Shown: piece after piece, positions 6,094-64,000 of the stretch
Layout: every line of letters begins with the position of its first letter
Numbering within the stretch: the stretch's first letter is position 1
Virus record (IMG/VR): IMGVR_UViG_3300042878_000903
Span: 45,969 to 109,968 of that record
Length of the DNA: 64,000 nt
Reading direction: 5' to 3' (one strand)
DNA from: a virus
Notes under the pieces: generated by a model
Seen by the model: the letters and a program-made list of their open reading frames with translations, nothing else
What the model was told of the DNA's origin: nothing
The model's database searches: none
Made by a program: the position numbers and the translations under genes

Positions 6094-8621
6094 TATATAC
6101 CCTTCAGTGTATTTACTTCTTGTTGTAATGATTCTACCATATTTGACAATTCTTGTATAGCTTTGGTTAGCGGTGAAATAAATTCTTCATAAACCAAAGC
6201 CTGGCTAGACTCTGGATCATCCTTGTCGGCTAGCGTCCAAAAAGCTGCTGAGTCATATATACCTGATTGGTCTAAAGCTTCTTTTACTTCTTGAGCTACA
6301 AACCCGTAATGATTTCTTAATCCTGGGTCATTCAAATTTGGCTCAGTTATTGGCTTATCAGAATTTTCATGTAATATTTGGTTACCGTCTTCATCTATAA
6401 CTGGCTTAACGGATCTTGAATTCAGTTTGTATTTTCTTGGATTCAATTTTTTAATAAAATCTAGGCCTAGATCTGAAACCTGTATGTTATTTTTATTTCT
6501 ATTATCTGAGCTTACGTTTGGACTATTTATTAAAAATACGTTTCTCCATCTAAGGTTAAAAGGGGAGCTTACAAATCCGAGTGAAGCGTCGTCAGTATAA
6601 TACGGATACCAATTTGAAAGAGTTCCAGCTGATCCCGCAGACATCATGTTTATAGCATTTACTGCTAAAGCCTCAATCGAGGTACCAGTTCGTATAGACT
6701 TTGTTTTAAAATAATAAGAATTAGTCAATGATCCAACTGTAATGGTTGGGGTTGTAATAGCTACACTTGCACCAATTGTTCCAGCAGTAATTTTATCTGC
6801 GTTGATATTAAATGCTGAAATAAAAGTTGAAACAACTGCATCTGAAGATATTGTTCCAGCTGTTATTTTACCTCCGCTAATTGTAGTTGTTGTAGTAGAA
6901 CTGTTAATGCTATTAACAATTGCATCCCTGTTAAAACTACTAGATGGTAAAGCGGCATCTGCCGTTGCTTTTGCAGCCTGAGCAGCAATTTTTGCGGTAT
7001 TGGCATCTGATGCAGCAGTTGTTGCGGTGGTAGAAACAGTAGTTAACTGTGTAGATGTTGCGTACCCAGAAATACTTGAGCCCGCTCCAAAAACTGCACC
7101 TGTCGCATAAAGAGTTCCATCAGATTTAATTTTAAACTTTGCGTTTGCATCTGGTGTATTGTTGCCAGCCCACATAAGAAATGTGTCGCTACCAGAAACT
7201 TCTGTTCCTAAATAAATACTATTTTGTGCACTTGCCCCAACTTGTATTTTGCCATTACCAGTGCTATCTAATATAATATTGTTTTTAGAAAAAGTATTAT
7301 CTCCCAATGCCCAACCAGCAATACTTCCACCATTTGCGGTTATAGTTCCTGTTGCAGCAGATATAGTTACAGACTTTGTGCCATTAGCAACTTTAAGTCC
7401 TGTTGAGTTTAATGCAAATCCATTGCCTGTTAAGTTTCCAGTTGTAGCATCAATTGTTCCGCTATATATAGATGCTCCAGTTGTAGACATAAATATATTA
7501 CCGCTAAACTGCCCACCTCTAGCTGTTATGTTACCATCTACAGCAAATGTAGAGCCGTCCCACAAAAGGTAGTTTGAGGTTGACCCTCCAACTTTAAGTC
7601 TGGCACTGTTTGCTGCATTAATATACCAATAGTTGCTGGCATCAAAATATAAACCTTTATTTGTTGCAACTGATCCCACCCCTACTCCAAATTCAAAATC
7701 TCCGCCCTTAATAAAATTTGTTACTGATGGAGTTCCAGTAACCGTAACATCTGGTCCAGATGTATACAAAGAAGATGTATTATTATATTCATCATATGTA
7801 GCAACTGCTATTTTATAGGTTGAGCCAATTACTAATCCAGCAAGTTTATATGTTGTTCCAGTTCCTGGAGAATCGACATAAGAATAAGTGGCTCCGCTAT
7901 CATTACTAAATCTAATTCTATATCCTCTTATGCCACCTCCCGTTACTGCTGGCCAAGATATGTTTGCGTAAGCATTGAATCCCAAGTATCCAGATGTATC
8001 AATTCCACTTTCAGTAGTCACGGAAGTTACGTTTGCTGGTCCAGTTGTATCTACAACAATTGGGTCTATTGCTTTGAATGGGCCAAAAGAAACACTTTTC
8101 TTTCTATAATCTTGATCTCGTGTGTCAACTCTTATCCACCTGTTTGCCGTATTTGAAACAAGTATGGTTGCAGAATTTCCGTTCCCATTCCAAACTAAAT
8201 ATTCTTCTCCTGCAAATGCTCCAGTTAAACTTTCGTATATTTGTATATCAATAAGCCATTTGTTTGCAACCAAAGCTTTATCTATTAAAGTCCAGTTTAC
8301 TCCATAAGAAAGAAGTGAAGGTGTTACAACAAGGTTGGTAACTGGCTGAGTTAAATCAGGAGTTTGTAGCGTAAATACAAAGTTTGGGGACCTAGTTCCA
8401 GGAATAAGGTTTGAAGCATTATTTGGATCAGAGTATAAATACGAAAATGAGAATTGATATTTACCATTCATTACAACATTTAATCCTGATTTTTTAACAG
8501 TAAAGGAATCTGCGCTTTTTGTATTGGCCGCTGTAGCCGCTTCTGCATTTGTTTTGCTTAAGTCTGCTGGTATATATCTTCCACTTACTGGATCATATCT
8601 GCCTGGGGAATATTTATCCAT
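6093..8621 (-). CDS. Tail fibre with fibronectin-III domain and S74 chaperone
   Basis: This 842-residue fibre-like protein probably contacts the host surface. A fibronectin-III-like domain lies near residues 190-295 (TTGPANVTSVTTESG onward). A long Gly/Thr/Ser-rich beta-repeat region follows at about 310-690. The C terminus is an intramolecular chaperone of the peptidase S74 family, starting at the self-cleavage signature SSDNRNKNNI (residue 704). It continues through HYGFVAQEVKEAL and ends in a coiled coil. Such domains help the fibre trimerise and are then cut off between the last virion residue and the Ser. The gene overlaps its upstream neighbour by one base. Confidence 0.8.
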   Translation of the reverse strand: MDKYSPGRYDPVSGRYIPADLSKTNAEAATAANTKSADSFTVKKSGLNVVMNGKYQFSFSYLYSDPNNASNLIPGTRSPNFVFTLQTPDLTQPVTNLVVTPSLLSYGVNWTLIDKALVANKWLIDIQIYESLTGAFAGEEYLVWNGNGNSATILVSNTANRWIRVDTRDQDYRKKSVSFGPFKAIDPIVVDTTGPANVTSVTTESGIDTSGYLGFNAYANISWPAVTGGGIRGYRIRFSNDSGATYSYVDSPGTGTTYKLAGLVIGSTYKIAVATYDEYNNTSSLYTSGPDVTVTGTPSVTNFIKGGDFEFGVGVGSVATNKGLYFDASNYWYINAANSARLKVGGSTSNYLLWDGSTFAVDGNITARGGQFSGNIFMSTTGASIYSGTIDATTGNLTGNGFALNSTGLKVANGTKSVTISAATGTITANGGSIAGWALGDNTFSKNNIILDSTGNGKIQVGASAQNSIYLGTEVSGSDTFLMWAGNNTPDANAKFKIKSDGTLYATGAVFGAGSSISGYATSTQLTTVSTTATTAASDANTAKIAAQAAKATADAALPSSSFNRDAIVNSINSSTTTTTISGGKITAGTISSDAVVSTFISAFNINADKITAGTIGASVAITTPTITVGSLTNSYYFKTKSIRTGTSIEALAVNAINMMSAGSAGTLSNWYPYYTDDASLGFVSSPFNLRWRNVFLINSPNVSSDNRNKNNIQVSDLGLDFIKKLNPRKYKLNSRSVKPVIDEDGNQILHENSDKPITEPNLNDPGLRNHYGFVAQEVKEALDQSGIYDSAAFWTLADKDDPESSQALVYEEFISPLTKAIQELSNMVESLQQEVNTLKGI

Positions 8622-9935: not shown

Positions 9936-12900
9936 TTAAACATAAATCGACCTACAAGTAAGTTTTGTAGACGGGGCTTGGCTATAACCCTGCTCAATAT
10001 CCAAAACAATATATTTACCAGCCGTTTGCCCAGTATCTTCAGTTGAATAAATCATATTATTTGGATATGATATTTCAACTACATCTCCCGTTTCAATAAT
10101 AGGGTTTGGGAAAACGTCTATTTGAATAACTGTTTGTTGCTTAGACCATTGAGTTCTCATCCATTTAGAAAGCTCTTTAGCTTCAGATTCTTTTTGTATC
10201 CACATAGATTCAAATGCTACTTGCTCATCATTTTTAGTTGCAGATAAATCTGGATCAAGATACTCGAACGGGTCTAGGGGAGCTACTGTTTCTCCTACTA
10301 CGATAAAGCTTTTTTGACCACCGTCTGCTAAATCAACAAATGCTCCTGTGTTATTTAAAATATAAGCATCAATTCCAAATGAGTTTGCATCGTACCCAAG
10401 TAGAGTTACGTTGGGGTTTAATATTATTTGAGGGTATTTAACAAAACCTGGTCTTGTTGCATACCTGGTTGATATTTTTTTAATTTCTCTGGCTACTGGC
10501 CCAAATTCTTTTATCCATGGACTCGATAAAGTAGAGGCAGATCCAATAGCAATAAAGTCGCCAAACACATTTTTTAGTTCCGTGGCAGAACCAACGTATG
10601 AGCCGTAATTGTCATAAGAATAAGATCCAGTAAAATCTTCTTTCTTTAATGAAGCTATATATGCATAGTCAAATGCTGATTCACCTTGTATGCCAATTAA
10701 TGCAATTTTGTTGCCCATTGTTGTGGCTGCAGAATCAGTTGCTGTTATTACGGCATTGTTAAATTTAATTTTAAATATTCTTTGACCTGTTGTTGCTTGA
10801 GAAACTCTTACGTCTACTCTATAAAATTCTCCTCCAGATACTCCAGTAATTGATGCCTCTTCTGTCTTTTGAGTATCAGAAACTGGTGTCTCTACTCCGT
10901 TAACTATTTTAAATAGTTGTACATCTCTATAATTCAATCCTTTGTTTGCTACGTTTTGAGAAGTTCCAATTTTTAAAATATAGCCGTTTAAATTATTGGC
11001 GTCAAGACCAATGCCTAGTCCAGCAGAAACAAACTGTTCCCCAGTAACTCTTCCATTGCTACCTTTAGCAAGCTTAAAGAATAAAGCTGTTCCAATTGAA
11101 AAATATTTTTGTGATGTAAAATTAACATCTGGATTAATTGAAGCGCAATAGTATTCTTTAGATGCCGTGGGTGCAACTATTGTAAGCAAGGATCTAGATA
11201 TTAAAGAACCTGATCCATCTGTTTGTCTTAATGAAAATACTGATTGATCTTCAACATTTGTTTTTGCAGACAAGTTTAGTTTAGATCCTGTCCATTGATT
11301 TTTTAATTCGTCAATATTTACTGAGTGGCTATCGCCTACACCGATGCCTTTACCAGTTGCATTAAATGCATTTCTTTCTTTAATTCTATATCTTAGGGTA
11401 GGCTTAAAAGAATTTATCTTGCTTTCCCCAAGAAATTTAGCAATGTCTGAGTCTGACGTTATCCATTTCTTTATAACTGTATTTGGTGCAGATAGAGGTT
11501 CATATTGAAATTCAATTGCATCATATTCAATTATTTCATTGTTTATTAAAAAATACCCAGCTTTATTATAAAAAGATGTATCTGCTAAGTCGCTGTAAAT
11601 ACTAATTGGAGACAAGGATACAACTCCTTTGTCGGCATTTGTTTCGGCTGGTGCCGTTGCCAATAAAGTAGTTTGTAACGCAGCTGCACCAATTGCGGCT
11701 GGCGGAGAAACATAAAGGTTGTCTGATGAGCCCTGATAGTTTGTGCTAATAATCGGAGTGTAAATTACTTTTACTGCCTTAACAGAAGGAACTGTTTCTT
11801 TGGTTAAAGATATTATGTTAGGAATATTAACCCCCTTAGATTCACTTCTAAACTTAAATCCAGATGTCCTTGTTGGATCAAACAAATAATCTCTAGGATA
11901 AAACTGCAGAATATCATTATTATCAAATGTTGCTATCATCTGTGTGTCTCTACATAGATCTTGAATGTGTTGCCATACAGTTTTTGTGTCTTCTGTAAAC
12001 CAGTACAAAGGGACTATGGTGGCGGAGTCAACTTTATTTGCATCCCCCTTGCCATAAGTATTAAAGTTGTACCCAGTAAATCCTACGCTATCTAAAAGCC
12101 TTCTTATGATTGCTTGTGATGGAGCATTTTGAATTACAATATCTGGAGCTAGTATTTCTTGTAGAAATTTTGCTCCGTCTAATCCCTGTATGTCGATGTC
12201 TCCAAATTCAGACAAAGTGAATGAGTCTATGTAAAATACACCCTGTGGAATAACATCATCTCCTATTTTATTAAATGGAGAAACTTTTACATTCTTATAT
12301 AGGTTAATGTTGTCTTTGTTAAATGGCATTGTTTTATCATACTCAATACCCCTTTTATCGTAGCCCTCAAGCGACATAGATAAGGCATTTGAAGTTACAG
12401 ATCCAACTGGAACAATACCAGATGAGTCATCGGATGAGGTTTTTGAAACTTGAAAAGAAACTATTCTATTTGACACATCTTGTATATATCTGGCTCCGAC
12501 CTCTATTATTCCAAGATACGAGTTGGCAACACTGATTGTATTAACAGTGACAATAATCTTTTTAATATTTACTGGGGCCGACGGAGTTGTAAATTTTGTC
12601 GTTGACCATGAGGATCCATTCCAATATAATTGAAACACTCCATTGTCTGGAACAACTCCATTTGTAGATATTGTTGTTTCTGTACCAGCGTGATCTTGTA
12701 TTTTAATAGACCATGTAGATGGCTTAGAGTAAGAAGTTTCAAATTTAACAAGTATGGTATTAGTAACAGCAGTTTTTGATATTGGATAATCTACAGTAAA
12801 ACTAAAATTACTTAATGTTGTGCCGCCAGATTTAGGTGAAACCCAAAACTTGTATTGATTTTTAGGACTAGAAAAATAAGTTCTTACTGGAAGATCTGAA

Positions 12901-21928: not shown

Positions 21929-22663
21929 TTATGCGTGGGTTGAAATGATACGGTCAATAATTAGTCCGTATTCCTGACCTACCTTGATGCCGTCTGGAAG
22001 CAAACGGAATGTTACTGGGAATGTTGATGCTGCGTTACGAGCCAAAGAGAACTGTGACTGTTGTACAGAAAGAACACGACGTGCATAATATACACGCTCA
22101 GCAATCAAACCTAGTGTACCGTCAGATGCTGCTGTACCACCTTGTGGTGCTGCACCGACTGCAACTAATTGACGCTCATTTGGAGCTGCTCCTAGAGCAC
22201 CTGCCTCAAGACCAAGTGTGCTCTTTGCAGCAGCAGCTGTTCCTGAATTTGATAAAGTTGATGTTCCTTGACCAAATACGGCTAGAATGTTCTCAAGAGT
22301 ACCTTCTGCCATTTCTGTTGCGATCATAACTTCCATTGACTCCTTGAAAAGCTTTGCTGTATCAAGAAGCTGATCTACTGTTACTGAACCGTATGATGGG
22401 TTGTAAGTAATTTGAAGACCGTTGTTTGTGTAACCTACGTTACGGAATTTGTTTGTTGCATCTGCATTTAGAGTTTCTGTATAAGACTTTCCTGCTGTCT
22501 TAACTGCTGGGGTTCCAGTTGAAGTTTCGTTTTCGAAAGCTACACCTGCTGCTGAACCTGGCTCCATGTTTTCTACATATCCTGATGTTGTGATGTCTTT
22601 AGTAGACAAAAAGAGCGGTGAAGCTCCAACAAGAATATTTTTAGCATTGTTATACTTTGCCAT
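21929..22663 (-). CDS. Major tail tube protein
   Basis: This 244-residue protein, with an upstream promoter and its own strong terminator, fits a highly expressed tail tube subunit. It begins MAKYNNAKNILVGASPLF and has the features of tail tube proteins: GLQITYNPSYGSVTVDQLLD, a long insertion loop, and a C-terminal FRLLPDGIKVGQEYGLIIDR. AGGAGGTAGT precedes the ATG. It stands between the tail terminator and the chaperones, the expected order. Confidence 0.8.
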   Translation of the reverse strand: MAKYNNAKNILVGASPLFLSTKDITTSGYVENMEPGSAAGVAFENETSTGTPAVKTAGKSYTETLNADATNKFRNVGYTNNGLQITYNPSYGSVTVDQLLDTAKLFKESMEVMIATEMAEGTLENILAVFGQGTSTLSNSGTAAAAKSTLGLEAGALGAAPNERQLVAVGAAPQGGTAASDGTLGLIAERVYYARRVLSVQQSQFSLARNAASTFPVTFRLLPDGIKVGQEYGLIIDRIISTHA

Positions 22664-56970: not shown

Positions 56971-57158
56971 GTATATATTTTAGTTGACTGCTATTTAAGA
57001 TTTATCAAAATGTTAATAAATTTTTAATTTGTATGATACACGTATTTCAGATGTCCGTTTTGTCTATATAGTCCGCACATATATAAATGACCTTGAGCGT
57101 GAGTGTGGTGTAACTCACAAAAATAGTTTGTGAATACTAGCGAGTAACCCCCCTAAAT

Positions 57159-57179
57159 GTCAGACCCCCCTGCTAGGAT
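57159..57179 (+). promoter_or_regulatory. GTCRG-N10-TANNNT promoter (copy 1)
   Basis: GTCAG, ten bases ending in TGC, then TAGGAT; a TATAGT also starts at 57180. It lies 48 bases before the first right-arm gene, which has AAAGG. Confidence 0.55.
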
Positions 57180-57226
57180 TATAGTATAAAGAAAGTAAGA
57201 AAGTCTTACTAAGAAAGGTAGTTAAA

Positions 57227-57409
57227 ATGACTACACTAATCCGAGAGATTACTCTCTCTAATGTCCGAGCCGATGAGGCTAATCTAATTGTCTGCGCTTT
57301 CTGCTCAGACTACGCAAGCGAAATGTTTTGCGGTAAATGTAAAGAATACAAGGGCTTAATGACCCTTGGTGAGTGGTTATCTTACACTCAGGAAAGTTGG
57401 GTGATGTAA
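57227..57409 (+). CDS. 60-residue zinc-ribbon protein
   Basis: CAFCSDYASEMFCGKCKEYK holds two CxxC knuckles, forming a compact zinc-binding site in the middle of the protein. An N-terminal helix-strand (LIREITLSNVRADEANLIV) and a C-terminal helix flank it. AGAAAGG precedes the ATG. It is first in its operon. The function is unknown. Confidence 0.6.
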   Translation: MTTLIREITLSNVRADEANLIVCAFCSDYASEMFCGKCKEYKGLMTLGEWLSYTQESWVM

Positions 57410-57558
57410 TGTTATCCGAAAAAACTTTTAATAAAATTGTTTGGGAATACCAAAATGGTGGCGTGGTTTCTAATCACCCCGAATTAACTACCTATGAGCG
57501 TAAGGTATTGCTACGCTACTTAATCTCTCTCCCTACTGTGACTAAGGTCACAGAATAG
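57409..57558 (+). CDS. 49-residue hypothetical protein
   Basis: The start at 57409 overlaps the previous stop (TAATG). It is helical (KTFNKIVWEYQNGG and TYERKVLLRYLISL). The last codons contain the palindrome CTGTGAC-taag-GTCACAG, which may serve as a terminator or operator. No known family. Confidence 0.5.
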   Translation: MLSEKTFNKIVWEYQNGGVVSNHPELTTYERKVLLRYLISLPTVTKVTE

Positions 57559-57581
57559 GCGACAGCGTGTCGCTTGATAAT

Positions 57582-57602
57582 GTCGGTTGCTAATGATAGT
57601 CT
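57582..57602 (+). promoter_or_regulatory. GTCRG-N10-TANNNT promoter (copy 2)
   Basis: GTCGG, ten bases ending TGA, then TAGTCT. It lies 37 bases before the ATG at 57640, with GAAAGAAGG between. Confidence 0.5.
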
Positions 57603-57639
57603 TACCTTAATAAACAAACTAACGAAAGAAGGACAGAAA

Positions 57640-57732
57640 ATGGATAAACTAAACGAGGCACTAGAGGCCTTACAACAAGCAAACAAAGTGTTTGCTGAAA
57701 TGTTCGACATAGACGAGAGCGAGGCTAACTAA
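57640..57732 (+). CDS. 30-residue helical protein
   Basis: The frame MDKLNEALEALQQANKVFAE then MFDIDESEAN is a single amphipathic acidic helix. It has GAAAGAAGGA before the ATG and couples to the next gene by TAATG. It is very short but begins an unbroken chain of coupled genes. It may be a peptide effector or only a translational leader. Confidence 0.45.
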   Translation: MDKLNEALEALQQANKVFAEMFDIDESEAN

Positions 57733-57845
57733 TGTTATTTTTTGATTGGGTAGAGGATTATCCTCACATTGTTTTGCCTATCGTGTTAGGCACGATAACT
57801 ATAATTGCTATTGTCGGTGCTATTGTTAATGGAGGTAATAACTAA
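57732..57845 (+). CDS. 37-residue membrane peptide
   Basis: An N-terminal aromatic/acidic piece (FFDWVEDYP) leads into one membrane segment (IVLPIVLGTITIIAIVGAIV) ending in Asn-Gly. It is coupled by TAATG to both neighbours. The function is unknown; it may act on the host membrane. Confidence 0.45.
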   Translation: MLFFDWVEDYPHIVLPIVLGTITIIAIVGAIVNGGNN

Positions 57846-58006
57846 TGAAACTAACCTACTCAATTTGGCAAGGCTCTTTACAGAAGGGCACACTAACCGC
57901 TAAGAGCATTAAAGAAATTATCGCTCTAGTTAATGAATTAAACGAGGCAAACCCTCCGTTAAAATTCGAATACCTAATACACAAGATAGAGCAGGTGAAT
58001 AACTAA
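57845..58006 (+). CDS. 53-residue hypothetical protein
   Basis: The frame KLTYSIWQGSLQKGTLTA continues as a helix (KSIKEIIALVNELNEAN) and PLKFEYLIHKIEQ. It lies in a chain of TAATG-coupled genes, which supports translation. No known family. Confidence 0.5.
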   Translation: MKLTYSIWQGSLQKGTLTAKSIKEIIALVNELNEANPPLKFEYLIHKIEQVNN

Positions 58007-58179
58007 TGATGACTAAATGGGATACTATCCAAGCGGATATAGCAGACGCTTATGTCTATCTAGATGAAGAAGAGGCGTTAGATAAGATTAACGCTGAGGC
58101 GATTAGCGATAGCGATATCGTTAGCCTTGATGAAATAATCGAGAAAGAATTAACATTAGATTGGGAGGCATACGAATAA
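58006..58179 (+). CDS. 57-residue acidic protein
   Basis: The protein is strongly acidic (DIADAYVYLDEEEALDKI and SLDEIIEKELTLDW), like small DNA-mimic or inhibitor proteins, but this is only a resemblance in charge. It starts ATGATG and is coupled to both neighbours. Confidence 0.5.
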   Translation: MMTKWDTIQADIADAYVYLDEEEALDKINAEAISDSDIVSLDEIIEKELTLDWEAYE

Positions 58180-58331
58180 TGAACTTAGAATTGTTATTAG
58201 ATAGCGAATACTTTTCTCTATACATTAACGGGCTATGGCCTAATGGTGTCGGTATAGATATCCCGACATGGCTACTAGTTGGCTCTATTGGTTTTATTTA
58301 TTCTATCGCATTACTTAGGAGAGATAAATAA
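58179..58331 (+). CDS. 50-residue membrane protein
   Basis: A short N-terminal helix (LELLLDSEYF) precedes IDIPTWLLVGSIGFIYSIAL, a membrane segment, and a basic end (LRRDK). It would insert with the C terminus inside. It is coupled by TAATG to the upstream gene. The function is unknown. Confidence 0.45.
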   Translation: MNLELLLDSEYFSLYINGLWPNGVGIDIPTWLLVGSIGFIYSIALLRRDK

Positions 58332-58430
58332 ATGGCTAACCCTAGCGGATTTTATACCTGCCCTAATTGTGGCAGGTTAAATGCGGGCGCATATACTAAA
58401 TGCGTATGTGAGCAAACTCACAAAGAATAG
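58332..58430 (+). CDS. 32-residue zinc-ribbon peptide
   Basis: The frame ANPSGFYTCPNCGRLNAG followed by KCVCEQTHKE contains CPNC and CVC, a minimal zinc site. It is the last gene of its operon, after which the first modular intergenic region begins. It is very short and may bind RNA. Confidence 0.45.
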   Translation: MANPSGFYTCPNCGRLNAGAYTKCVCEQTHKE

Positions 58431-58646
58431 ACGGCGTGTCGGCTTGACAAAATCGAGCCGATCCCCCACATAGCTACGGGGTCGGGCGTGTCGTTAAGGG
58501 GGTGATATAAATCACCCTGGATTTTGTGGATAACTTTCGGGCGTGTCGTGGCGTGTCGGGCGTGTCGTCCACAGCCCTAATGTGATTAAGAACACATGAC
58601 TTGAGCGTCTCAAAATGTGGAATTACTGGCTAGTAAGTAGAGAATT
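58431..58646. other. Modular intergenic region 1 with GCGTGTCG repeats and DnaA box
   Basis: This noncoding stretch has five GCGTGTCG copies (from 58434, 58486, 58541, 58551 and 58560), a CCCC/GGGG hairpin (58463-58481), a GGGTGAT/ATCACCC palindrome (58500-58517) and one perfect DnaA box on the minus strand (58525-58533). Confidence 0.6.
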
Positions 58647-58667
58647 GTCGGTGGCTTCCGCTATAAT
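58647..58667 (+). promoter_or_regulatory. GTCRG-N10-TANNNT promoter (copy 3)
   Basis: GTCGG-N10-TATAAT lies 29 bases before the ATG at 58697, with GAAAGGAAG between. Confidence 0.65.
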
Positions 58668-58696
58668 TGCGGTATAACGAAAGGAAGTGGCTAACA

Positions 58697-58894
58697 ATGG
58701 CTAACTTATACACAATAGAAAACCTTTTACAAGGTAAGCAATATCGCTCTAATTCTCTTAATGGAGAAATTATTAGCGGTGAAAAAACCGACCATTGGTT
58801 TGGTAATGATAAAGAAGCGTATCGTGTTTTAATTCGCACACCGCATTCTTATAAAGACCACTATCGCATAATTGCGGTTAAGGTAGGTGAATAA
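58697..58894 (+). CDS. 65-residue hypothetical protein
   Basis: This protein is beta-rich and polar (ENLLQGKQYRSNSLNGEIIS, DHWFGNDKEAYRVLIRTPH), ending RIIAVKVGE. The start at 58697 follows GAAAGGAAG. It is first in its operon. No family is recognised. Confidence 0.55.
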   Translation: MANLYTIENLLQGKQYRSNSLNGEIISGEKTDHWFGNDKEAYRVLIRTPHSYKDHYRIIAVKVGE

Positions 58895-59017
58895 ATGGGA
58901 TATGTAGAAATCTTTAGAATAAATGATGAGGGTGCTGGCTGGGTAGATTTATCCGAAGCAACACCCGCAGAAATGTTAGATTTAGAAATCGGATTATTTC
59001 AGGAAGGTGCGCTCTAG
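58895..59017 (+). CDS. 40-residue acidic protein
   Basis: The frame GYVEIFRINDEGAGWVDLSE continues ATPAEMLDLEIGLFQEGAL. It starts right after the previous stop with a GGTGA before it. The function is unknown. Confidence 0.5.
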   Translation: MGYVEIFRINDEGAGWVDLSEATPAEMLDLEIGLFQEGAL

Positions 59018-59037
59018 GGCGTGTCTTTCCCGAAATT

Positions 59038-59058
59038 GTCGGTGGCTTAGGCTATAAT
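59038..59058 (+). promoter_or_regulatory. GTCRG-N10-TANNNT promoter (copy 4)
   Basis: GTCGG-N10-TATAAT is nearly identical over 15 bases to copy 3 (GTCGGTGGCTT). It lies 35 bases before the ATG at 59094. Confidence 0.65.
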
Positions 59059-59093
59059 TTAACCAATAACAAACTACGAAAGGAAAACTATAA

Positions 59094-59225
59094 ATGGGAA
59101 ATCTAGCAGAAATAATCGGGGTCGCTTGTGATGAGTGTGGCGGTGCTGGCTTCGTATTCTTTGGTGATGAAAAGAATTATGATGTTGAAAGTTGCGATTG
59201 CGTTAAAGAAACATGGGGTTTCTAA
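59094..59225 (+). CDS. 43-residue zinc-ribbon protein
   Basis: VACDECGGAGFVFFG and VESCDCVKETW hold C-x2-C and C-x-C pairs, like a half DnaJ-type zinc finger. GAAAGGAAAAC precedes the ATG. It is coupled by TAATG to the next gene. The function is unknown. Confidence 0.55.
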   Translation: MGNLAEIIGVACDECGGAGFVFFGDEKNYDVESCDCVKETWGF

Positions 59226-59425
59226 TGTATAGACTAGATACTTACTATGACGGACAATTAGAATACACACACAAATTCGCTGACGCTTTACAAGCGTTTG
59301 AGGCTTTCGCAAAATGTTATGATGTCGGATTTGCTAACGAATTCGCAACATATAATTTATCTTTGCCAACGGGCAAAATGTATACTAAAAACTTTAATCG
59401 GATTGGATTGGTGTCGCAGAAATGA
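59225..59425 (+). CDS. 66-residue hypothetical protein
   Basis: The frame YRLDTYYDGQLEYTHKFADA continues LQAFEAFAKCYDVGFANEF and ends in a polar tail. Its start overlaps the stop of the previous gene (TAATG), and its stop overlaps the next start (ATGATG). Similar small proteins occur in actinophages without known roles. Confidence 0.55.
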   Translation: MYRLDTYYDGQLEYTHKFADALQAFEAFAKCYDVGFANEFATYNLSLPTGKMYTKNFNRIGLVSQK

Positions 59426-59613
59426 TGACCCGTAAAGATTATATTGCTACTGCTGAAATTCTAAATTATGCTAGTAATAAAATTCACCCTGCTGTTTTTT
59501 CTAAAGTCGTAAATGATTTCGCAGAAATGTTTGCGAAAGATAATGAGCGATTTGATGTAACAAGATTTCACAAAGCGAGTGGGTATCGTGTTCCTAACTT
59601 CTCTTCAAAATAA
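59422..59613 (+). CDS. 63-residue hypothetical, common phage type
   Basis: The pattern TRKDYIATAEILNYASNK, an FAEMFAKDNERFDVTRF segment and a short tail matches a small family present in many phages (RKDY...NPRFD.xRF). The function is unknown. It is translationally coupled to the previous gene. Confidence 0.6.
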   Translation: MMTRKDYIATAEILNYASNKIHPAVFSKVVNDFAEMFAKDNERFDVTRFHKASGYRVPNFSSK

Positions 59614-59719
59614 AGTAAAACGAATTCAGGAATTGCGCCGTAGTAATGCGGCGCAACCTGTTCGCAATAAAAAAAAATACACACGCAAAATAAAACATAA
59701 AAAATCTGATCTAATATAA
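59579..59719 (+). CDS. 46-residue very basic protein, GTG start
   Basis: The frame starts at a GTG inside the end of the previous gene and ends in a lysine/arginine-rich tail (RNKKKYTRKIKHKKSDLI). It contains the inverted repeat TTGCGCC/GGCGCAA (59633-59656). It may be a small nucleic-acid binder; it could also be only a stop-free stretch. Confidence 0.35.
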   Translation: MGIVFLTSLQNKVKRIQELRRSNAAQPVRNKKKYTRKIKHKKSDLI

Positions 59720-59804
59720 TATCGGGCGTGTCGCAGCTTGCAACGCAGTCGGGCGTGTCGCCCGCATAGGTGCGGGGTCGGGCGTGTCGTTAAGAGTGTG
59801 ATTA
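59720..59804. other. Modular intergenic region 2
   Basis: Three GCGTGTCG copies (59726, 59753, 59782) and a CCCGCA-tagg-TGCGGGG hairpin (59761-59777). There is no DnaA box here. Confidence 0.5.
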
Positions 59805-59831
59805 AAAACACCCTGAAAACTGGGGTGTTTT
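59805..59831 (+). terminator. Terminator before right-arm GP88 operon
   Basis: AAAACACCC/GGGTGTTTT with a nine-base loop, ending in T residues. Confidence 0.65.
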
Positions 59832-59840
59832 GTAATAAAT

Positions 59841-59861
59841 GTCAGTCAGACCTGATATACT
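59841..59861 (+). promoter_or_regulatory. GTCRG-N10-TANNNT promoter (copy 5)
   Basis: GTCAG-N10-TATACT, with TGA before the -10, lies 28 bases before the ATG at 59890 and has GAAAGG between. Confidence 0.6.
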
Positions 59862-59889
59862 ATCAATTCAACCAACGAAAGGTCAACTT

Positions 59890-60033
59890 ATGAATATATG
59901 CGAAGACTTCCCATGCTGCGGGCACGAAATGAATGATTGCGATGGATCTCTTTATGGATCCGATGAAGCTATTAAGCAAGATATGTGGCGCATGATGTCA
60001 CGCATGGCCGATGCAGAAATGGGGGATTTATAA
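59890..60033 (+). CDS. 47-residue Cys-containing protein
   Basis: ICEDFPCCGHEMNDCDG forms a compact cluster of four cysteines and a His. The pattern CEDFPCCGH is one I associate with small conserved proteins in phages. The C-terminal half is a helix. GAAAGG precedes the ATG. Its stop overlaps the GP88 start. Confidence 0.55.
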   Translation: MNICEDFPCCGHEMNDCDGSLYGSDEAIKQDMWRMMSRMADAEMGDL

Positions 60034-60785
60034 TGTCAGACCTAACCGATATAATTGCCCCTATGGTAAAATTAAAAAGATCTAATGATAGAAAGGTGGC
60101 TAACCTTGTCACAAAAAATGGAAAGCAAGCCGCAATTGCGAACACGTTCGGATTACCCGCAGGAAAAGATTTTTCATGTCCTGGTGCTACGTCTATCTGT
60201 GAGACTGTTTGCTACGCTGGGAAACTTGAAAAACTATACAAAGCAGTAAAGGCTAACTTATTACACAATTGGGAATTGTTACGCAATGCGGACAATGACA
60301 CAATGGTGGCCCTATTGGATGATATGATCATAGATTTTATTGCTGATTGTGATAAAAAAAATGCGCCTAAGTTATTCCGTATCCACTGGGACGGAGATTT
60401 TTTTAACGATACCTATACATATGCGTGGAAGACTGTTATTGAAAAGCATTCAGATATTCAATTTTGGGTGTATACACGTGTCAAGGACGCAGCGCTTATT
60501 CTAAAAGATATATCTAATCTATCACTGTACTATTCAACGGATGATGAGAATAAAGAAATTGCATTCGATTTGAAAACTAATTCTAAAATTCGGCTTGCCT
60601 ATCTAGGAAAAACATTTTCTGCTACCGAAGATACAATGAAAGAATTAACGGGTAAGCCTGGCGCTAAGTGCCCTGAAAATATGAAAAGTATTCCGCTTAT
60701 CTCAAGCGCAGGCAGTGCGTGTGTATCATGTGGCCTGTGTGTTTATGGTAAAGCAGATATAAGATTTTCTGCGAGTAAAAAATAA
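60033..60785 (+). CDS. GP88-family protein
   Basis: This 250-residue protein matches the GP88 family of actinophages: C49-PGATSI-C56-ETV-C60-YAGK near the N terminus, LFRIHWDGDFFNDTYTYAW in the middle and C230-VSC-GLC at the end. The N-terminal and C-terminal cysteines could hold a metal or iron-sulfur centre, and the middle resembles radical-SAM-like barrels, but activity is unknown. The ATG overlaps the previous stop (TAATG). GP88 is widespread in these phages and often near small genes. Confidence 0.75.
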   Translation: MSDLTDIIAPMVKLKRSNDRKVANLVTKNGKQAAIANTFGLPAGKDFSCPGATSICETVCYAGKLEKLYKAVKANLLHNWELLRNADNDTMVALLDDMIIDFIADCDKKNAPKLFRIHWDGDFFNDTYTYAWKTVIEKHSDIQFWVYTRVKDAALILKDISNLSLYYSTDDENKEIAFDLKTNSKIRLAYLGKTFSATEDTMKELTGKPGAKCPENMKSIPLISSAGSACVSCGLCVYGKADIRFSASKK

Positions 60786-60880
60786 TGTATGAGGTGATTG
60801 GTGTTATTGGCGGATCAATGATGATTCTTATATCTATTCTGCCAATTTTATTAGCCGCATATGTAATAACCAAGCTGTAA
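60785..60880 (+). CDS. 31-residue membrane peptide
   Basis: The frame MYEVIGVIGGSMMILISILP continues ILLAAYVITKL, a single membrane segment. It is coupled to GP88 by TAATG. The function is unknown. Confidence 0.4.
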   Translation: MYEVIGVIGGSMMILISILPILLAAYVITKL

Positions 60881-61020
60881 CGGCGTGTCGGCTTGACAAA
60901 TTAGCAAGCTCCCGCACATATCTGCGGGGTTATCCACAGGGTTATGAGGGTTATCCACAACCCCTGGAATTGTGAGTATTATCACAAAAGCTGAGACACG
61001 CCCATAATGGATTAGGTGAT
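60881..61020. other. Modular intergenic region 3 with two DnaA boxes
   Basis: GCGTGTCG at 60883; a TTGACA-like tract; the CCCGCA/TGCGGG hairpin at 60911-60929; perfect DnaA boxes at 60930-60938 and 60951-60959 (21 bases apart); TTGTGA-gtatta-TCACAA at 60970-60987; and an inverted GGGCGTGTC at 60995-61003. Confidence 0.65.
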
Positions 61021-61041
61021 GTCGGTGGCTAATGGTAAAAT
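61021..61041 (+). promoter_or_regulatory. GTCRG-N10-TANNNT promoter (copy 6)
   Basis: GTCGG-N10-TAAAAT, with TGG before the -10. It lies 27 bases before the ATG at 61069 with GAAAGG between. Confidence 0.6.
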
Positions 61042-61068
61042 ACTCTTATCCAACAACGAAAGGCTAAA

Positions 61069-61275
61069 ATGAAAACAGTAGAACACTCTCTTAGATTTAT
61101 TACAGAGTTAGATGAGACCAACCCAACCGCACAACGATTACTAGAATTAGATAAAGATATGCAGGCACAATTATTGGAAGGCATGCTACACACTTTACTC
61201 GTTCCCGATATTATGCCACTTATAGATAATCTAAACGCAGGCAACTCTTATGCAACACTAAAGGTTGTGAAATAA
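61069..61275 (+). CDS. 68-residue helical protein
   Basis: The protein is mostly helix: VEHSLRFITELDETNPTAQR, LLELDKDMQAQLLEGMLHTL. GAAAGGCTAAA precedes the ATG, and its stop overlaps the next gene (TAATG). Unknown function; the sequence around 'ELDxTNPTAQ' may be a family mark. Confidence 0.55.
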   Translation: MKTVEHSLRFITELDETNPTAQRLLELDKDMQAQLLEGMLHTLLVPDIMPLIDNLNAGNSYATLKVVK

Positions 61276-61550
61276 TGTTAGCAACTGCTATCGGGATACT
61301 TGACGCAACCAAAGATAGTATTTTTGACGATGAAATTATGGGATTAGCAGGCGAACTCCATGAACGCAGAAATGAACTATCAGATGAAACTTTTGCTAAG
61401 TATTTATTTATGTATTCCACAGCCCTATCTAGCAAAGTAGCCGACCTAGTAACTAAGGTCTGCCTAAGCAAAGAGGAAATGTCGGTGCTATGCGCTACAA
61501 TAGACGAAATGGACAACCTATCAGAAACTATACTAGAAGAGGATAAATAA
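61275..61550 (+). CDS. 91-residue helical acidic protein
   Basis: The sequence has several helices (GILDATKDSIFDDEIMGLAG, ELHERRNELSDETFAKYLFM, SVLCATIDEMDNLSETI). It is coupled by TAATG. Unknown function; it may pair with the gene before it. Confidence 0.55.
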   Translation: MLATAIGILDATKDSIFDDEIMGLAGELHERRNELSDETFAKYLFMYSTALSSKVADLVTKVCLSKEEMSVLCATIDEMDNLSETILEEDK

Positions 61551-61820
61551 ATGGGAAGCATAACTGCATTAGGAATACAAGATAGTGTGTTAGATTTAGA
61601 AACACAATTAGCCTATCACTTACAAGGTAATCATTACCCGCCCGTTCCAATATCTATGGTGCAACCTTGCATAGATGCTATTGACGCATACTATGATGAG
61701 GATTTTGATCGACAGATAAAGATGCCTGAAGGCGTATCTTATAAAGGATTAGATACAGCCCCCGCTCACGCTATCATAGACCAACACCACTTAGAGTTTT
61801 GGCTACCTGAAAGTGATTAG
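61551..61820 (+). CDS. 89-residue hypothetical, actinophage type
   Basis: The pattern DLETQLAYHLQGNHYPPVPI, then MVQPCIDAIDAYYDEDFDRQ, is one I have seen in small actinophage proteins. The end (APAHAIIDQHHLEFWLPESD) is acidic. The gene follows the previous stop directly. The function is unknown. GTGAT-tagc-ATCAC spans its stop codon (61813-61826). Confidence 0.6.
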   Translation: MGSITALGIQDSVLDLETQLAYHLQGNHYPPVPISMVQPCIDAIDAYYDEDFDRQIKMPEGVSYKGLDTAPAHAIIDQHHLEFWLPESD

Positions 61821-61866
61821 CATCACACACTAATATTCTCAAATACTGAGATAAGGCTAGACTAAT

Positions 61867-61887
61867 GTCAGACCCCAATGCTACAAT
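61867..61887 (+). promoter_or_regulatory. GTCRG-N10-TANNNT promoter (copy 7)
   Basis: GTCAG-N10-TACAAT with TGC before the -10. It lies 27 bases before the ATG at 61914, with AAAGAGG between. Confidence 0.6.
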
Positions 61888-61913
61888 ACAACCTAACAAA
61901 GAAAAGAGGCAAA

Positions 61914-62093
61914 ATGACAATAGAAGGAAAACTCTATCAGGTTGGCGATTTATTCACCACCCTAAAGTCAAAAAGAACAGGTGTTATCAAAGAGATACAC
62001 CCACAGGCATCTGGCTCGGTGCGTGTGCTACTAGAAATGCCAACGAAAGAAACTCGTTGGACTTCAGTATCCGCTAAAACGCTACTGGGCTAG
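61914..62093 (+). CDS. 59-residue SH3/KOW-like small protein
   Basis: The frame TIEGKLYQVGDLFTTLKSKR continues TGVIKEIHPQASGSVRVLLE and closes with a Trp-containing strand, like a small SH3-type barrel. AAGAGGC precedes the ATG at 61914. Unknown function. Confidence 0.5.
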   Translation: MTIEGKLYQVGDLFTTLKSKRTGVIKEIHPQASGSVRVLLEMPTKETRWTSVSAKTLLG

Positions 62094-62102
62094 TAATTTA
62101 GG

Positions 62103-62128
62103 GCAGGAGGGTCGTCAGACCCTCCTGC
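62103..62128 (+). terminator. Perfect 11-bp hairpin sharing the next promoter
   Basis: GCAGGAGGGTC-gtca-GACCCTCCTGC, a perfect stem. Its loop and right arm carry the GTCAG-N10 part of promoter copy 8, and TATAAT follows at once. It could block upstream transcripts and support the new start. Confidence 0.6.
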
Positions 62129-62134
62129 TATAAT
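62114..62134 (+). promoter_or_regulatory. GTCRG-N10-TANNNT promoter (copy 8)
   Basis: GTCAG-N10-TATAAT with TGC before the -10. It lies 38 bases before the ATG at 62172, with GAAAGG between. Confidence 0.65.
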
Positions 62135-62171
62135 ACTCATAACAACAACCAACCAACGAAAGGAAACACAA

Positions 62172-62594
62172 ATGGCAAGAGGCAAAGCAATACAGGTAAA
62201 AATCGCTACTACTAAGGTTATCAAAGCCTTAGAAACAAGATTAGCCAAATTAGAGGCTGACTATAAAAAGCAAGATGAAAACGAAGCAAAGTTCCAAAAA
62301 TCTATTGAGAAATGGAAAAAGGAACTTTTCTCTTATGCTATCGCCAACATCTCAAAGGCAGAAAACCTACGCACCAATTATCGTGAGTGGACAAAAAATC
62401 TCAATGTAGATTTTGACCTAACAGTAAAAGATGGTGAGTTCCCTGCTGAGCCTCAAAGAGATTTTGAGCAACTACATGCTCATACTTATCGTGAAATGAA
62501 AGAGGAAATGGAAAATGCTATCCGTATTCTCAAAATGACCGATGAGGACACAGTAAGCACAAGCACTTACAACGCTATTGCTCGTTATCTCTAA
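62172..62594 (+). CDS. 140-residue coiled-coil protein
   Basis: The N-terminal half is a long charged helix (ATTKVIKALETRLAKLEADY and QKSIEKWKKELFSYA). The C-terminal half has a second helical pair (QLHAHTYREMKEEMENAIRI). Unknown function; small coiled-coil proteins of this size are common in actinophage right arms. GAAAGGAAAC precedes the ATG. Confidence 0.55.
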   Translation: MARGKAIQVKIATTKVIKALETRLAKLEADYKKQDENEAKFQKSIEKWKKELFSYAIANISKAENLRTNYREWTKNLNVDFDLTVKDGEFPAEPQRDFEQLHAHTYREMKEEMENAIRILKMTDEDTVSTSTYNAIARYL

Positions 62595-62603
62595 TTAGAT
62601 AAT

Positions 62604-62648
62604 CATAAGGGTGGGTGCGTGGGCGATAGACAACACCCACCCCTTATG
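62604..62648 (+). terminator. Terminator after coiled-coil gene
   Basis: CATAAGGGTGGGTG / CACCCACCCCTTATG forms a long stem with a 16-base loop, followed by GTATAATTTTTA. Confidence 0.75.
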
Positions 62649-62655
62649 GTATAAT
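62647..62655 (+). promoter_or_regulatory. Extended -10 at terminator edge
   Basis: TGG-TATAAT overlaps the last bases of the terminator stem, 29 bases before the ATG at 62685, with AAAGG between. This promoter has no GTCRG box. Confidence 0.5.
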
Positions 62656-62684
62656 TTTTATCCCTACTAACAAAGGTAATACAA

Positions 62685-62918
62685 ATGCTAAACAGATTTA
62701 AGATAGAAATGTATGATGAAGTAAAGGCAAATGATTTAACGATTTATTCAGACGAAGGATACGATAACGAAAGTCTAAAAGAACTCGTGTTCTCAAATCT
62801 AAAACGATTTGATGGAAATGTTAAAGCTTTTGTATTTGATCAACAAAACAAAAAGAAAACTTCTGCAGCATTCTTTCCTATGGAAACAGTTAATTACGTA
62901 AAGTCTCTCTGTAAATAA
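62685..62918 (+). CDS. 77-residue hypothetical protein
   Basis: The frame LNRFKIEMYDEVKANDLTIY continues with GYDNESLKELVFSNLKRFDG and a strand-rich end (VKAFVFDQQNKKKTSAAFFP). It looks alpha/beta, ending MetGluThrVal. AAAGG precedes it. Unknown function. Confidence 0.55.
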   Translation: MLNRFKIEMYDEVKANDLTIYSDEGYDNESLKELVFSNLKRFDGNVKAFVFDQQNKKKTSAAFFPMETVNYVKSLCK

Positions 62919-62921
62919 TCT

Positions 62922-62951
62922 TAGGGCGGGCTTATCTATTTCCCCGCCCTA
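62922..62951 (+). terminator. Terminator before DUF932 operon
   Basis: TAGGGCGGG / CCCGCCCTA stem with a 12-base loop, four bases after the preceding stop, followed by TTTCCCTT. Confidence 0.75.
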
Positions 62952-62965
62952 TTTCCCTTAATTTG

Positions 62966-63041
62966 CCCGCAGAGCTGCGGGGTTATCCACAGTTTTAAGT
63001 GAGGCTGTGGATATCCCTGGAATTCTGTGAGATTACTCACA
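62966..63041. other. Modular intergenic region 4 with DnaA boxes
   Basis: Hairpin CCCGCA-gagc-TGCGGG (62966-62981), perfect DnaA box (62983-62991), a one-mismatch box on the other strand (63006-63014), and TGTGAG-atta-CTCACA (63026-63041). The order matches region 3. Confidence 0.6.
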
Positions 63042-63080
63042 CCGCACAATTCGGACATATTATAACTAATCCTAGACAAT

Positions 63081-63101
63081 GTCAGTGCCACCTGTTATAA
63101 T
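63081..63101 (+). promoter_or_regulatory. GTCRG-N10-TANNNT promoter (copy 9)
   Basis: GTCAG-N10-TATAAT with TGT before the -10. It lies 29 bases before the DUF932 ATG, with GAAAGG between. Confidence 0.65.
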
Positions 63102-63129: not shown

Positions 63130-64000
63130 ATGGCTCATAATCTCGAAATCGAAAATGGCGAAGTTGCTTTCGCTCTTCGTGGCGCTCCTGCTTGGCACAA
63201 CCTTGCAAACCGCATCTTCACAAAAGATGAAGAAGTTACAACCGCTACAATGCTTGAAGAGGCAAAGTTAGCAAATTGGAATGTTCGCTTATCTCCAATT
63301 ACTGAATATATCCCAGAATCATTTAAAGATGTATCTGATGCTTCTTTAGTGTTACGCACAAATCCATTCAATGGTGGAACTGATGTTCTCGCAACTGTTG
63401 GCAAGCGTTACAAGCCTGTGCAAAATGAAGAGTTATTTCAATTTGCAGATGCAATTCACGATGCTAACGCCGATTGCCGTTGGGAATCTGCTGGCTCACT
63501 AAAAAAGGGTAAAGTAGTATTTGGAACTGTAGATATTCCACGCACAATGGTATTAGACCCACAAGGCGCTAATGACCAAACAAAACTATACTTAATTGTA
63601 TGGACTTCACACGATGGTTCTGTTGCCGTTCAAGCAGCCGTTACTCCTGTTCGTGTTGTATGCCAAAACACTCTTAATCTTGCGATGAAGAATGCTAAGC
63701 AATCATTCAAGATTCGTCACACACAATCTGTTGAAGGTCGCATTCAGGTTGCTCGTGAAACTCTTGGGCTTGCTCTAGGTTACTTTGATGAATTTGAAAT
63801 TGAGGCTAAGGCTTTATTTGCTCAGGCAATTACTGATGCTGAATTTTCTAAATTGATTCAAACAATTTATCCTAAGCCAGACAAAGATGCAGCAAAAGTT
63901 GCGCTAACTAAATGGGAGAATAAGGTTGTTCTGCTTGATGACCTTTATCATAACTCACCAACTAACGCTACAATCAAGGGAACAAAGTGGGGTGCGTTTA
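63130..64000 (+). CDS. DUF932 (phage/plasmid-like) protein, 3' part outside window
   Basis: The frame from MAHNLEIENGEVAFALRG is open to the window edge, 290 residues. It holds the DUF932 marks: GAPAWHNLANRIF near the start, a VGKRYKPVQNEELFQFADAI segment, and VQAAVTPVRVVCQNTLNLAM in the middle. DUF932 proteins occur in phages and plasmids and may influence DNA handling or host defences, but no activity is established. GAAAGG precedes the ATG. Confidence 0.82.
   Translation, partial: MAHNLEIENGEVAFALRGAPAWHNLANRIFTKDEEVTTATMLEEAKLANWNVRLSPITEYIPESFKDVSDASLVLRTNPFNGGTDVLATVGKRYKPVQNEELFQFADAIHDANADCRWESAGSLKKGKVVFGTVDIPRTMVLDPQGANDQTKLYLIVWTSHDGSVAVQAAVTPVRVVCQNTLNLAMKNAKQSFKIRHTQSVEGRIQVARETLGLALGYFDEFEIEAKALFAQAITDAEFSKLIQTIYPKPDKDAAKVALTKWENKVVLLDDLYHNSPTNATIKGTKWGAF

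Follow-up and report, generated by a model that had tools for sequence, protein, structure and literature searches.

The window analysed here covers the final 64 kb of a viral contig of 109,968 bases (IMG/VR record IMGVR_UViG_3300042878_000903; 36.7% G+C) and contains a block of genes in which one element recurs, namely, the box GTCRG (R is A or G) followed after exactly ten bases by a -10-like TANNNT. The question raised by this locus is which factor directs RNA polymerase to these sites. The original prediction, which listed nine of them within 6 kb, suggested a phage activator or repressor or a modified host RNA polymerase. On their sequence the sites are classed as promoters of the PafBC (RecA-NDp) type, and we propose with good confidence that the PafBC of the host activates them and that single-stranded DNA (ssDNA) or DNA damage would switch the gene block on.

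The pattern GTCRG-N10-TANNNT was scanned on both strands with dinucleotide shuffles as the control. The 64-kb window has 12 matches whereas the shuffles gave 2.43 ± 1.44. Between 57001 and 63200 there are 11 matches on the + strand, which is the gene strand, and none on the - strand, against a mean of 0.11 and a maximum of 3 in 2000 dinucleotide shuffles. The rest of the genome (about 104 kb) has 4 matches with the two strands combined, so the box is not equally common in coding DNA. All nine listed sites were recovered by the scan at their coordinates and on their strand, but two more, at 60035 and 61481, had been overlooked. The matches in the block are as follows, all from the pattern scan:

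57159-57179, +, promoter GTCAG-N10-TAGGAT with a TGC extended -10; ribosome-binding site, then ATG 57227
57582-57602, +, promoter GTCGG-N10-TAGTCT; ATG 57640 downstream
58647-58667, +, promoter GTCGGTGG-N7-TATAAT, with TT preceding; ATG 58697 downstream
59038-59058, +, promoter GTCGGTGG-N7-TATAAT; ATG 59094 downstream
59841-59861, +, promoter GTCAG-N10-TATACT; ATG 59890 downstream
60035-60055, +, promoter overlooked earlier; predicted start 60062-60063
61021-61041, +, promoter GTCGGTGG-N7-TAAAAT; ATG 61069 downstream
61481-61501, +, extra match of uncertain function within the open reading frame 61275-61550; no ribosome-binding site downstream
61867-61887, +, promoter GTCAG-N10-TACAAT; ATG 61914 downstream
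62114-62134, +, promoter GTCAG-N10-TATAAT; ATG 62172 downstream
63081-63101, +, promoter GTCAGTGCCACCTGTTATAAT upstream of the DUF932 gene; 3 of 22 bases differ from a host recA-type site

The match at 61481 is weaker evidence and may be a chance occurrence. The site at 60035 lies within the 5' end of the long frame of a GP88-family gene, in which the next in-frame ATG is at 60063 (MVKLKRSN...). Since the predicted start is at this ATG or one base before it, the site is probably the promoter of a leaderless GP88 mRNA, and this layout is repeated in a related locus, L016. The promoter at 63081 is predicted to drive the DUF932 gene. The remaining features attributed to the nine listed sites were also borne out: TGN stands before the -10 at seven of them, a ribosome-binding site of the GAAAG, AAAGG or AAAGAGG type with a start codon lies downstream of all nine, and, with the first base of TANNNT taken as -12, the box is at -27 to -23 and not at -35.

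Host PafBC as the candidate factor

The consensus of the RecA-NDp promoter of actinobacteria is tTGTCRgtg-8nt-TannnT, with the tg in lower case (PMC5656591), and this promoter was later tied to PafBC (PMC6789036). The phage pattern is the same as this consensus in the box, in the spacing (8 nt after TGTCRGtg) and in the -10. PafBC is a heterodimer with WYL domains, and ssDNA bound to these domains activates it; in the 'sigma adaptation' that it carries out, the helix-turn-helix (HTH) of PafB contacts the -26 motif and the HTH of PafC contacts domain 4 of SigA (PMC11804915). Placed in this way between sigma-A domain 4 and the promoter, PafBC accounts for a box that lies at -27 to -23 without a -35 element. 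The PafBC promoters of Mycobacterium and other actinobacteria share with the phage sites the -26 box, the 8-nt gap, the TANNNT and the lack of a -35, and the version at the host recA gene is nearly identical in sequence. The phage differs from the host in having an array of at least 11 such promoters in one block and -10 elements that are stronger; GlxR-like dyads upstream are a further difference in this group of phages.

The host is likely a member of the freshwater order Nanopelagicales (acI) because, among cellular proteins, the KatG of the phage is closest (63%) to that of strain IMCC25003, an acI strain (PMC5301498). The WhiB protein of the phage was also taken as a pointer to this host. 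All 61 genomes sampled from this order have the HTH domain of PafC (PF19187). In IMCC25003, pafB and pafC adjoin each other, and its PafB matches at 4.5e-40 the PafB solved in the M. smegmatis transcription complex (7p5x, 9fnd), RMFERDK..LR.LGI being common to both; its PafC gives a match as well. In 31 genomes of the order TGTCRGTG-N8-TANNNT occurs 98 times whereas the reversed pattern occurs 25 times, and the sites precede, among others, recA, radA and carD. The recA promoter of this type adjoins a LexA box, CGAACA-N2-TGTTCG, and differences at only 2 or 3 of 22 bases separate some of the phage sites from host recA-type sites. The site before carD is conserved within the order (L185, L193, L195, and L196).

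No WYL protein was found in the contig itself, in 20 relatives or in 7 further phage contigs. Because the motif matches, the phage contigs have no WYL protein, PafC is present throughout the likely host order and the host recA gene has the same promoter, the factor is most likely the host PafBC. If this is the case, then host RNA polymerase would start at the block at a low basal level through TATAAT and the extended -10, and ssDNA, whether it arises when the phage enters, when it replicates or when the DNA of the host is damaged, would cause PafBC to load at the -26 box, from where, with no -35 needed, it would raise the transcription of the whole block together. In the phage group of the window, GlxR/CRP on upstream dyads would add a metabolic input. 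Since PafBC is active only with ssDNA, the block would come on when ssDNA appears. A PafBC or CRP coded by the phage was also considered and was rejected, as a profile search of the phage contigs gave none.

Several points weigh against this proposal. The host is inferred and not proven. PafBC requires ssDNA, of which there may be little in the early phase of an infection. The -10 of the host recA gene is weaker than those of the phage, and therefore the need for PafBC may be partial; the near-consensus TATAAT and the frequent TGN extended -10 suggest some basal activity that is independent of PafBC. The TG that follows the box in the consensus is present at four of the nine listed sites, the others having AC, TC or TT, and in 194 dereplicated sites from related loci (see below) TG is at -22/-21 in 84 and AC in 50. 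TG is therefore absent from over half, so that a portion of the array does not follow the consensus in its lower-case letters. Finally, the phage encodes a WhiB protein, and proteins of the WhiB class also bind sigma-A domain 4.

This last point belongs to an alternative in which a regulator coded by the phage, either WhiB (genome positions 21965-22339) or one of the small proteins of the block, binds the -26 box and activates or represses. WhiB is present in all 12 contigs tested of the phage's own group and in two other contigs that carry promoters of this type, and many block proteins have no known family. However, the box and its spacing are already those of the host recA promoter, the box recurs in phage contigs with few or no proteins in common, and WhiB occurs in phages without an array, such as DSL-LC01. 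WhiB factors are also not known to read TGTCRG. We therefore consider a phage regulator unlikely. What stands of the original interpretation is that this is a real promoter family, that its box is not a -35 and that a factor altering recognition by RNA polymerase is needed; that this factor is coded by the phage, or is a modified polymerase, is probably wrong, because host PafBC fits the box, the spacing and the recA promoter.

Conservation of the sites in related phages

The DUF932 protein of the window was used as the query to collect 80 related viral loci (about 1.3 Mb). Every one of the 80 has at least 8 sites, the median being 15. Summed over these loci, the gene strand has 1133 matches at the spacing of 10 and the opposite strand has 5, while other spacings gave 5 to 203 matches each. 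The higher counts among the latter, at spacings 5 and 15, are probably due to a few promoters repeated across orthologues. Because relatedness inflates such sums, redundant sites were removed at a threshold of 75% identity across 70 bases, which left 194. Their logo begins with A/T-rich positions from -31 to -29 and T at -28 (97%; 10 of 11 sites in the window), continues with GTCRG, T at -22 (63%) and two S positions, and ends with G at -14 (78%) and TAtaaT. No column upstream of -31 is conserved in the 194 sites, that is, there is no -35 element. A ribosome-binding site with a start codon lies downstream of 164 of them, as compared to 26 of 286 off-spacing controls and 19% of positions taken at random. 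Within the 194, ATG codons are most frequent at +1 (10 cases) and +2 (11 cases). This is the placement to be expected of leaderless mRNAs and supports the predicted transcript start.

These data bear on whether the box is only a bystander or a repressor site beside ordinary sigma-A promoters of the extended -10 type. The near-consensus TATAAT, the TGN at seven of nine sites and the G at -14 would fit such promoters. On the other hand, the spacing of 10 is strict across the 1133 sites, the sites at 58647 and 59038 do not have TGN, and in another lineage, described below, the sites are GTCRGTGG with few exceptions whereas the extended -10 is not near invariant. We consider it very unlikely that the box is a bystander or a repressor site, and PafBC promoters remain our reading of the array.

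Upstream dyads, repeats and the phage genome

Most promoters of the window's own group have a near-perfect TGTGA-N6-TCACA dyad upstream. The dyad scan of the window gave the following, with no strand assigned:

57104-57119, dyad TGTGGTGTAACTCACA, centre -74.5
57537-57552, dyad TGTGACTAAGGTCACA (10/10), centre -64.5
58581-58596, dyad TGTGATTAAGAACACA, centre -85.5
59797-59812, dyad TGTGATTAAAAACACC (8/10), centre -63.5
60971-60986, dyad TGTGAGTATTATCACA (10/10), centre -69.5, not in phase with the 10-bp steps of the others
61812-61827, dyad AGTGATTAGCATCACA, centre -74.5
63026-63041, dyad TGTGAGATTACTCACA (10/10), centre -74.5

Of the 796 near-perfect dyads in the 1.3 Mb of related loci, 733 fall in the 130 bp that precede a site, regions which make up about 11% of the sequence, with centres at -54.5, -64.5, -74.5 and -84.5 (Rayleigh z about 64 at 10.25 bp). 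Upstream placement in phase with the helix turn is that of a CRP-type activator at class I promoters. In the host genomes the GlxR gene adjoins nth and has the recognition helix VGASRETVNKALADF, which we take to match the helix of C. glutamicum GlxR; TGTGANNTANNTCACA is said to be named in a GlxR paper (PMC4254451), going by a term match. Perfect dyads, the only ones counted, number 3 in 21 host genomes as against 10 for the reversed control. Because host dyads are this scarce, we claim only that the dyad works like a GlxR/CRP site; GlxR/CRP probably acts from these upstream dyads in this phage group, a proposal weakened by that scarcity.

Two other repeats occupy the same intergenic spaces. 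A DnaA-box-like sequence, TTATCCACA, is at 58525-58533, 60930-60938, 60951-60959 and 62983-62991, and in the 80 loci it occurs 349 times with 16 expected, 281 of these in the 250 bp ahead of a promoter. The repeat GGCGTGTCG is found, always on the + strand, at 58433, 58485, 58540, 58550, 58559, 59725, 59752, 59781 and 60882. The related loci have 373 copies on the + and 91 on the - strand, enriched upstream of promoters, and it is also upstream of some promoters of the other lineage. Since GGCGTGTCG and the dyads are repeated along with the promoters, the whole array could be duplicated repeat DNA of no regulatory meaning. But conservation between copies is confined to the box and the -10, the flanks being unrelated, and 194 sites survive the removal of those that are more than 75% identical. 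This explanation is extremely improbable.

The genes named in connection with the promoters are:

60063-60785, +, GP88-family gene (Pfam PF17338); Pfam GP88 match 2e-52
63130-63999, +, DUF932 gene (PF06067) by Pfam profile match, running past the contig end

Apart from these two, the block consists mostly of small unknown frames. Its orientation is opposite to that of the portal/structural and replication genes, and the contig has genes for WhiB, for DnaE-, DnaB-, DnaG- and RecA-like proteins, for a portal protein and for KatG. In the related locus L010, the sequence runs beyond DUF932, with promoters at 11219, 11365 and 13072, into sequence that resembles the first bases of the contig (ATGGCTGGACAATTTATAGAT). 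Because of this continuation, the phage map is probably a circle of which about 3 kb, including further promoters, is missing here. Another locus, L007, has the phage-borne KatG, a catalase-peroxidase, at 10123-12186 (63% to acI IMCC25003) and, from inspection of the sequence, a glutathione-peroxidase-like protein at 7352-7810. It is possible that these two are virus-carried oxidative-stress genes.

Other phage lineages and known systems

A second lineage came out of a scan of viral contigs with TGTCAGTG-N8-TATAAT. These contigs were thus selected for carrying the motif, but the selection does not force the clustering on one strand of many further sites, GTCGG included. Array contigs that share 0 to 4 proteins with the window's phage are L295, L272, L288, L262, L306, and L321, and the largest array of the other lineage has 24 sites in 28.9 kb (G086). 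In L272, L288, L295, and L321 a perfect LexA box (CGAACA-N2-TGTTCG) lies no more than about 70 bases from a site, which is the pairing seen at the host recA gene; no LexA box of the form CGAAC-N4-GTTCG was found in the window's own group, and the TGTGA-N6-TCACA dyads are absent from the other lineage. When named relatives were sought for the second lineage, the sole result was a glycosyltransferase that matches DSL-LC01. Since L295 also carries a DUF932 gene, the second set is not wholly unrelated to the window's group, and one shared ancestral module may be behind both. The sampled named actinophages have 0 to 2 strict matches each, and no array was found in the Streptomyces relatives, in ten diverse other cultured actinophages or in the metagenome-assembled DSL-LC01; therefore, the array is not a general actinophage trait. 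We put forward tentatively, as a reading that falls somewhat short of an even chance, that unrelated phage lineages of freshwater actinobacteria independently put a gene block under host PafBC, with ssDNA from infection or sunlight damage as the switch, and that one lineage adds cyclic AMP/GlxR as a second condition.

The nearest named relatives are the four Streptomyces phages of the Stanwilliamsviridae (EGole, BillNye, StarPlatinum, and Tomas), with portal proteins at up to 59% and DUF932 at 50%; their pattern counts are near those of the reversed-pattern control and they have no array. Phages E7 and F5 likewise code for WhiB and have hosts in the Nanopelagicales, the order proposed here, but their genomes are 39 kb and they have their own sigma-70 factor (PMC10202952). 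LexA-controlled phages and prophages likewise tie phage expression to the DNA-damage response of the host, in their case by derepression through LexA/RecA and not by activation through PafBC as proposed here. Comparable in design are the CtrA-controlled phages of Alphaproteobacteria ('lytic deferment'), in several lineages of which a region is loaded with sites of a host master regulator (PMC9437464). They differ in the regulator, the clade and the signal, which is the cell cycle and not ssDNA or DNA damage, and they have been bench-tested. Our literature search, mostly outside the reach of subscription journals, found no phage using PafBC. Thus, the promoter type is already known, and so is a phage region under a host master regulator in the case of CtrA, but the use of PafBC by a phage, as proposed here, would be new.

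PafBC is the main activator of the DNA-damage response in mycobacteria. If our proposal is correct, then phages of abundant freshwater bacteria would time their genes by the DNA-damage state of the host, as CtrA phages do by the cell cycle, presumably to their benefit, and loss of pafBC would be a possible route to phage resistance. The arrays supply dozens of natural variants of the PafBC promoter, they are a sequence marker for phages of hosts that have pafBC, and they offer a ready test of whether the damage response helps the virus.

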